From the NCBI GenBank assembly GCA_018262975.1, contig JADFDG010000009.1:62001-126000 (forward strand): DNA of 64,000 bases, in the 5' to 3' direction. Under the pieces are notes generated by a model. It did no database searches and was not told the origin of the DNA. It was given only the letters and a program-made list of their open reading frames with translations. Shown here one piece after another: positions 37,570-39,318 of this stretch; within the stretch, counting starts at the first letter, position 1; every line of letters starts with the position of its first letter. The stretch comes from Gammaproteobacteria bacterium. GTDB taxonomy: Bacteria > Pseudomonadota > Gammaproteobacteria > Pseudomonadales > JADFDG01. The position numbers and the translations under genes were made by a program.

Positions 37570-38400
37570 ATGCGCGCGCTGCTGCTGGTTCCCGTCATTG
37601 CGCTGCTGGCCGCCTGCGCTGCGCGCCAGGTGCCGGTGGAGGAATCGGCGGTGGTGACACGTCCGGCGAAAGTGTCGGACGGCAAGCCCGTCGCACCGGC
37701 AGCGGCAGCTACCGCGTTGCCGAAATACCACGTGGTGCGTCGTGGCGAAACGCTCTACTCGATCGCCTTCCGCTACGGGCTGGATTTCCGCGTGCTCGCG
37801 CAGCGCAACCAGATCCGCGAGCCGTTCACCATCTTTCCCGGCCAGCAGTTGGCGCTGCGCGAGGGCAAGGCGGTGGCCGCCGCGCCCGTCACGCAGCCGC
37901 CTGCGGCGCCCGCCACCCGTCCGCCCGCCGAGCCGCGCAAGCCGGTAGCGGTCGCTCCCGCGGTGACCACCCCCGCGGCGCCGGTTGCCGCACCGCCGGT
38001 GAAGGCCCCGGACGCGGTCCGTACGCCGGCCGGCGGTTGGCGCTGGCCGGTGCAGGGCAAGCTGCTCAGCCCGTTCAATCCTGCCGGCGTCGGCCCCAAG
38101 GGCATCGCCATCAACGGCAATCCTGGTGACCCGGTGCATGCCGCCCGTGATGGCCGCGTGGTCTACACGGGCAACAGCCTGGTGGGCTATGGCCAGCTGG
38201 TGATCATCAAGCATGATGACGTCTACCTCAGCGCCTACGCGCACAACCGCAAGCTGCTGGTGCGCGAGGGTGACAGCGTGCGCGCCGGCGATACCATTGC
38301 CGAAATGGGCTCCTCGGGCACCGATCGCACCAAGCTGCATTTCGAAGTGCGCCGCAATGGCGACCCTATCGACCCGTTGACGGTGTTGCCACGCCCCTGA
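37570..38400 (+). CDS. nlpD: NlpD-type lipoprotein, LysM plus degenerate M23 (LytM) domain
   Basis: 276-aa outer-membrane lipoprotein with lipobox LLAAC (Cys 16), a LysM domain (about 51-95, YHVVRRGETLYSIAFRYG), a Pro/Ala-rich linker, and a C-terminal LytM domain. The LytM zinc ligands are missing: KGIAI replaces the usual H-x-G-x-D segment and KLHFE replaces HLHFE. It should therefore be an amidase activator rather than an enzyme, as known for NlpD/EnvC. In many relatives rpoS comes next with its promoter inside nlpD; here a non-coding region follows. Confidence 0.93.
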   Translation: MRALLLVPVIALLAACAARQVPVEESAVVTRPAKVSDGKPVAPAAAATALPKYHVVRRGETLYSIAFRYGLDFRVLAQRNQIREPFTIFPGQQLALREGKAVAAAPVTQPPAAPATRPPAEPRKPVAVAPAVTTPAAPVAAPPVKAPDAVRTPAGGWRWPVQGKLLSPFNPAGVGPKGIAINGNPGDPVHAARDGRVVYTGNSLVGYGQLVIIKHDDVYLSAYAHNRKLLVREGDSVRAGDTIAEMGSSGTDRTKLHFEVRRNGDPIDPLTVLPRP

Positions 38401-38437: not shown

Positions 38438-38455
38438 TGTGAGATATCTCTTACA
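38438..38455. promoter_or_regulatory. GacA/UvrY/LetA box (upstream activating site)
   Basis: TGTGAGATATCTCTTACA matches the GacA box TGTAAG-N6-CTTACA at 11 of 12 fixed positions and is an imperfect palindrome. It lies about 190 bp before the proposed start of the GGA-rich RNA. Distant placement of this site is typical of rsmZ/csrB-class promoters. Between it and the RNA, 38456-38620 holds no gene, only an AT-rich patch at about 38529-38550 in otherwise GC-rich DNA. Confidence 0.75.
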
Positions 38456-38621
38456 GGGCTGTGCGAGGTTGCTGCTTTCTGCTGCCCTTGATCGCCGCAG
38501 TCTTTCCGGCGTATCCATGTAACGCCCTGTTTTTGATGGAATTATTTTTCCTGCAGGGTGCCGGCCCGGCGCCGCCCATCCGAACGACCTACGTAGAACC
38601 CGAAATACTGCCGTGGCGGTT

Positions 38622-38630
38622 TGCTAAGGT
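38622..38630 (+). promoter_or_regulatory. Extended -10 element of the CsrB/RsmZ-like RNA
   Basis: TGCTAAGGT reads as an extended -10 (TGn plus TAnnnT), predicting transcription start near 38637. The -35 region 17 bp upstream (GAAATA) is poor, as expected for an activator-dependent promoter. Confidence 0.45.
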
Positions 38631-38635
38631 TCGCC

Positions 38636-38962
38636 TCGTGCCACAGGGATGACGTCGGCACAGGGAAGCCGGACAGGATCGCCGGGTCAGGGAAGAGGGA
38701 TCGCAAAAGGGTAGGGAGTACTCGATTGCGGCCGGGGGCGGGCAACCGCCCCCGCACTTCTTGCGAGGCAGTGCGCCCCCGGGTGCACACGGAATGCCAG
38801 GGACAGGGAAGCGACCACGGAAGGCTCAGGGACGAGGCTATTCACGGCGGGGGCGGAGTCCTCCGCGCAAGGAGCACCAGGGACACGACAGGGACGCGCG
38901 GCAGGATGCCGACAGTGCCAGGACAGCAACAAAAAAGCCGGCTTTCGCCGGCTTTCTTGTTT
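38636..38962 (+). ncRNA. CsrB/RsmZ-family CsrA-sequestering small RNA (candidate)
   Basis: About 325 nt of non-coding sequence with 18 GGA triplets on this strand (about five expected by my rough estimate), 11 of them as CAGGA or CAGGGA. Some sit in hairpin loops: CGGC-AGGAT-GCCG at 38899-38911 and CCGG-ACAGGATCG-CCGG at 38669-38685. An 8-bp GC stem with a GCAA tetraloop is at 38734-38753. The tract ends in a rho-independent terminator and has a GacA box upstream. CsrB/RsmZ RNAs bind CsrA/RsmA dimers through such motifs and so free target mRNAs. The position between nlpD and fdxA matches rsmZ (rpoS-rsmZ-fdxA) in Pseudomonas. Exact 5' end unproven. Confidence 0.8.
38931..38962. terminator. Bidirectional rho-independent terminator
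   Basis: Perfect 9-bp stem AAAGCCGGC / GCCGGCTTT with TTTC loop (38934-38955). On the minus strand it is followed by six T and ends fdxA, 24 bp after its stop. On the plus strand it is followed by CTTGTTTCT and would end the GGA-rich RNA. Confidence 0.9.
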
Positions 38963-38985
38963 CTGCGATGCGCGCCGTGCGCGTA

Positions 38986-39318
38986 TCACCAGTCCTTGAG
39001 CAGCGCGCGCTTGCCCGGCTTGCCGTCCCATTCCTCGGCGTCGGCCGGGGCGTCCTTCATCTCGGTGATGTTGTGGCCGCTCCACTTGTCCGCGTAGTCC
39101 TTGTTGATCTTCAGGAACTCCTTCTGGTCCTCGGGCAGTTCGTCCTCGGAGAAGATGGCGTTCACCGGGCACTCCGGCTCGCACAGGGCGCAGTCGATGC
39201 ACTCGTCCGGGTGGATCACCAGGAAGTTCGGGCCTTCATAGAAACAGTCGACCGGGCACACCTCGACGCAGTCGGTGTGTTTGCAGTTGATGCAGTTCTC
39301 GCCTACTACGAACGTCAT
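38986..39318 (-). CDS. fdxA: Seven-iron ferredoxin FdxA
   Basis: 110-aa soluble electron carrier with 3Fe-4S and 4Fe-4S clusters. The N-terminal [17 protein letters not shown] and central [13 protein letters not shown] cysteine sets are both present, followed by the long C-terminal extension typical of Azotobacter-type FdxA ([21 protein letters not shown]). The start ATG has GAGGAG 6 bp upstream. The fdxA-mutS neighbourhood is conserved in Pseudomonas. Its terminator is shared with the convergent small RNA. Confidence 0.95.

Follow-up and report, generated by a model that had tools for sequence, protein, structure and literature searches.

A probable RsmZ-type CsrA sponge RNA, enlarged in its 3′ half, convergent to fdxA in a gammaproteobacterial genome

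Small RNAs with repeated GGA motifs that titrate CsrA/RsmA are known in several lineages. CsrB of E. coli is similar in size and in number of GGA motifs to the RNA described here, and its mode of action is the one we propose below; CsrB differs, however, in genomic place. In Pseudomonas, rsmZ has been described together with its neighbours fdxA, mutS, nlpD and rpoS and with a UAS (PMC4353343). In Alcanivorax dieselolei, CsrR2 adjoins an Hpt gene and was detected by dRNA-seq as an independently transcribed RNA with its own promoter (PMC9788540). RsmU, which also acts by sequestering RsmA, is cut from a 3′ UTR and is limited to Xanthomonas (PMC7694677).

We analysed a 64-kb stretch of a 3.3-Mb gammaproteobacterial genome (hereafter the window), in which a sequence-only reading had proposed a Csr antagonist RNA. 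The candidate, an RsmZ-type sponge RNA of ~325 nt delimited by motif counts and a covariance model, occupies 38637–38962 of the plus strand, downstream of nlpD (LysM and peptidase M23 domains; 37570–38400, plus strand) and convergent to the gene for the ferredoxin FdxA (38986–39318, minus strand). As in RsmZ of Pseudomonas (RF00166), repeated GGA motifs lie beside fdxA, downstream of a GacA box and ahead of a terminator. RsmZ is, however, only 118–136 nt long with 6–9 GGA, so that the window RNA is ~2.5 times longer, and rpoS is missing near it, unlike at the Pseudomonas rsmZ locus. The earlier reading had noted that rpoS is missing; in the whole genome (99.95% complete) no gene scores over the RpoS cut-off (best 291.9 versus 378.7 bits).

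The plus strand of 38636–38962 contains 18 GGA motifs (38647 to 38921) within ~290 nt; the minus strand contains only 2. Eleven of the 18 are part of CAGGA (3) or CAGGGA (8), so that the counts given in the sequence-only reading, 18 GGA in less than 300 nt with 11 CAGGA/CAGGGA, were exact. Chance levels were taken from 5000 dinucleotide-preserving shuffles of the stretch: 18 GGA (shuffle mean 11.2) were reached by 9 shuffles, whereas none reached the 14 A(G)GGA (mean 3.6) or the 11 CAGG(G)A (mean 1.4). Elsewhere in the window CAGG(G)A does not exceed 4 per 300 nt. Other sites of the genome with triple CAGGRA were considered as sponge loci and rejected; they sit in long open frames. ORFs of 63–217 amino acids traverse the RNA region as well, and could be taken for a short protein-coding gene. 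However, none of the overlapping ORFs was matched by Pfam, not even at E 1, in agreement with the earlier claim that no conserved ORF is present, and indels among relatives are not multiples of three, which leaves a coding gene a negligible probability. By motif counts, Pfam and the relatives' indels, the region thus carries many A(N)GGA motifs in non-coding sequence.

The stretch ends in an intrinsic terminator (38934–38955, plus strand; 9-bp stem and U-tract), and 38926–38962 folds with a z of −5.0, bearing out the rho-independent terminator proposed before. Both strands are T-rich on the flanks of this terminator, which may also end the convergent fdxA transcript. Further upstream on the same strand, a 5′ hairpin (GUGCC...GGCAC, 38638–38660), also present in relatives, has AGGGA in its loop. 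The best conserved element is the hairpin UCGCAA..GGGUA-GGGAG-UACUC..UUGCGG (38701–38731, fold z −3.95), with GGGA in the loop; GGGU(A/C)AGGANNACUC is found in most relatives. It is followed by a GNRA-capped GC stem, GGGGGCGG-GCAA-CCGCCCCC (38733–38754, plus strand), found by folding where the earlier reading had placed it. Two further hairpins of that reading, with AGGA in the loop (38669–38685 and 38899–38911), form in isolation but are not stable in every fold of the whole RNA.

Folding left 12–13 of the 18 GGA more unpaired than paired. Some hairpins fold well, but mean GGA accessibility (0.62) is no higher than in shuffles (0.58, sd 0.07), as compared to 0.88 for Pseudomonas controls. The calculation treats a GC-rich RNA in the absence of CsrA and may mislead, yet its result counts against the sponge reading.

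A GacA/UvrY box, TGTGAGATATCTCTTACA, with one mismatch to TGTAAGN6CTTACA, is found at 38438–38455 (plus strand), 199 bp upstream of the predicted RNA 5′ end. With up to one mismatch this palindrome occurs at 2 sites in the genome and at 0 in the control; the second genomic site (C6:100279) lies inside a coding frame and was discarded. No sigma-70 consensus promoter was found, which also counts against the reading. A probable extended −10 element, TTGCTAAGGT (38621–38630, plus strand), aligns with TTGCTATAGT of relatives, and predicts a 5′ end near 38636–38637; the alignment with relatives covers both the box and the TTGCTA(A/T).. −10 region. The promoter region with its GacA box, together with the terminator, supports a predicted plus-strand transcript.

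To see what occupies this locus elsewhere, we compared relatives from the same order, none of which belongs to the family of the window genome; a MutS scan of genome contigs for close relatives returned none (best 65% identity). Blastn of the RNA against relatives retrieved only terminator-like pieces. Rfam-recognised rsmZ was found at fdxA in 3 of 3 tested genomes of one family (f21; 96–116 bits), which is a Pseudomonas-type family and serves as a positive control for the locus. In a second family (f44), all 11 sampled genomes carry an RNA stretch of 120–128 nt (~125) that lies downstream of fdxA in convergent orientation and has 6–7 GGA and a terminator whose loop contains AGGA; in all 11 a GacA box with 0–1 mismatch lies 175–189 bp upstream. 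At the f44 locus examined (L194) the RNA adjoins an Hpt gene and not nlpD; since the same neighbour is described for CsrR2, f44 is probably the Alcanivorax family.

Ten f44 RNAs, with the window excluded, were used to build a covariance model (R1), which matches 38637–38763 over its full length with 42.1 bits (E 7.2e-11 in 3 kb), and this is its sole match genome-wide (E 7.9e-8). In a pairwise alignment with one f44 RNA, none of 2000 shuffles scored as well, likewise when GGA motifs were kept intact; among the aligned parts are the 5′ hairpin and a second one, GGGU-loop-ACUC, whose loop contains GGA. The window RNA therefore belongs with the f44 RNAs both by covariance-model match and by its place convergent to fdxA. 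It shares with CsrR2 and the f44 RNAs the box, the −10 region, the 5′ hairpin and R1 homology over the first 127 nt. The f44 RNAs differ in that, as delimited here, they are 120–128 nt long with 6–7 GGA, and terminate at the position of the window's GC stem, which lacks a U-tract.

The comparison in relatives that the earlier reading had called for showed conservation of GGA motifs at the fdxA locus more widely. Within 700 nt downstream of fdxA at 99 loci, which are not independent (11 are from f44), A(G)GGA is richer on the fdxA-convergent strand (Wilcoxon p 2.7e-10), and GGA clusters with p<0.01 were found at 16 of the 99 loci on that strand and at 1 of the 99 on the other. Many families of the order have no GGA cluster beside fdxA in the genomes sampled.

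Some of the loci have unusual architectures. In Cobetia amphilecti (L041) a GGA-rich stretch of ~760 nt downstream of fdxA, accompanied by a perfect GacA box, is probably an unusually long CsrA sponge. L170 and L031 have a tandem pair of RsmZ-like GGA-rich units with separate terminators, and palindromes resembling the GacA box are seen upstream of them. In Larsenimonas suaedae (L056) about four units are arranged in tandem, and ATGACACGTT and GGA motifs recur in them. Rfam searches of these four tandem or long forms gave nothing over threshold.

Nothing in the window reaches an Rfam gathering score either. PrrB_RsmZ (RF00166, threshold 44 bits) gave no match even at E 10 and CsrB (RF00018) was not listed at E 10, whereas RsmY (RF00195) gave a sub-threshold match at 38856–38956 (28.5 bits versus a gathering score of 57). 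Because unrelated control genomes likewise yield RsmY matches below threshold, we did not use this match as evidence of membership. The second-best genomic RsmY match (C23:230468) is a terminator just past a gene end, without GGA repeats, and Threonine-leader and other sub-threshold Rfam matches correspond to the terminator hairpin; all were set aside. Because none of these models is matched over threshold, the window RNA should not be filed under PrrB_RsmZ, RsmY or CsrB. The silence of Rfam, like the unremarkable GGA accessibility, is what would be expected if the region were a GGA-rich, GC-rich spacer that arose by chance and encodes no RNA. We consider this very improbable, because no shuffle reached the CAGG(G)A count and because relatives share homology, box and terminator at the fdxA locus.

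The RNA that we favour instead, a sponge of the RsmZ type, appears to consist of two halves, both on the plus strand. The first (38637–38763) is homologous to the ~125-nt f44 RNA, and the second (38764–38933) is an extra GGA-rich half, with a second, weak R1 match at 38846–38965 (24.4 bits). The GC stem at 38733–38754, aligned to the terminator stem of R1, occupies the position of the relatives' terminators; it is followed by GCACUUCUUG in place of a proper U-tract, with only CUUCUU nearby, and we infer that it may be a decayed terminator. Joint alignment of this inner stem with the relatives' terminators was uninformative. The enlarged 3′ half may have come from a tandem duplication that lost the inner terminator. 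This is suggestive only, since similarity between the halves (p 0.0075 with plain shuffles) falls to p 0.08 when motifs are kept intact.

The genome also carries genes of the Gac/Csr circuit. It has two csrA genes, where absence of a CsrA/RsmA gene would have spoken against the earlier proposal. One lies beside lysC and tRNAs, and the order lysC-csrA-tRNA has been reported for Alcanivorax (PMC9788540). The second (L200 3507–3725, G000:C3) is a divergent paralogue near a response regulator and a histidine kinase. UvrY/GacA is found over the curated cut-off (327.9 versus 280 bits), its gene followed by uvrC and then a pgsA-like gene, so that box and gacA orthologue are both present in the genome. 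Two proteins carry an sCache_4 domain, which in a set of 14 control genomes was matched only in E. coli; they are candidates for a BarA-like kinase.

The above results argue strongly that the window encodes a CsrA-sequestering non-coding RNA activated by GacA, the counterpart of RsmZ and CsrR2 enlarged in its 3′ half. The reading as a Csr antagonist RNA is upheld by motif density, csrA presence, homologues at the locus, box and terminator, and 'CsrB/RsmZ-like' was right as to kind, the RNA being an RsmZ counterpart by position, promoter and covariance model. What the DNA directly displays is the motif density, the box, the terminator, the first-half homology and the csrA and gacA genes; from these we infer transcription, activation by GacA, binding of CsrA and the duplication. 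Phosphorylated UvrY/GacA would bind the box at 38438–38455 and switch on the promoter, with transcription starting near 38637 and ending at about 38955–38962. The resulting ~325-nt RNA would offer up to 18 GGA sites, so that several CsrA dimers could be bound by a single molecule, freeing their mRNA targets. The RNA might alternatively owe its origin to the upstream nlpD, by the precedent of RsmU (PMC7694677), given that nlpD is the immediate upstream neighbour, in the same orientation, and that no clear terminator was seen between the two. This is unlikely, however, as both the GacA box and the −10 region have aligned counterparts in relatives with a gene other than nlpD upstream (Hpt at L194).

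A more speculative possibility, which we hold only tentatively, is that the sponge locus beside fdxA evolves fast and acts as a titration dial, ranging across the order from ~125-nt single units through tandem pairs (L170, L031) and several units (L056) to the ~760-nt RNA (L041). In the window two units would have fused via decay of the inner terminator, and partial read-through would yield a short and a long sponge differing in CsrA capacity.

The switch that separates growth from stationary-phase or biofilm programmes is set by CsrA sponges, and here the sponge is present at its locus in a genome that has no recognisable rpoS. Rfam at curated thresholds misses both this sponge and those at fdxA in several related families; the Gac/Csr circuit is therefore under-annotated. 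The range of lengths and GGA counts seen at a single conserved locus means that the evolution of sponge-capacity tuning can now be asked about.
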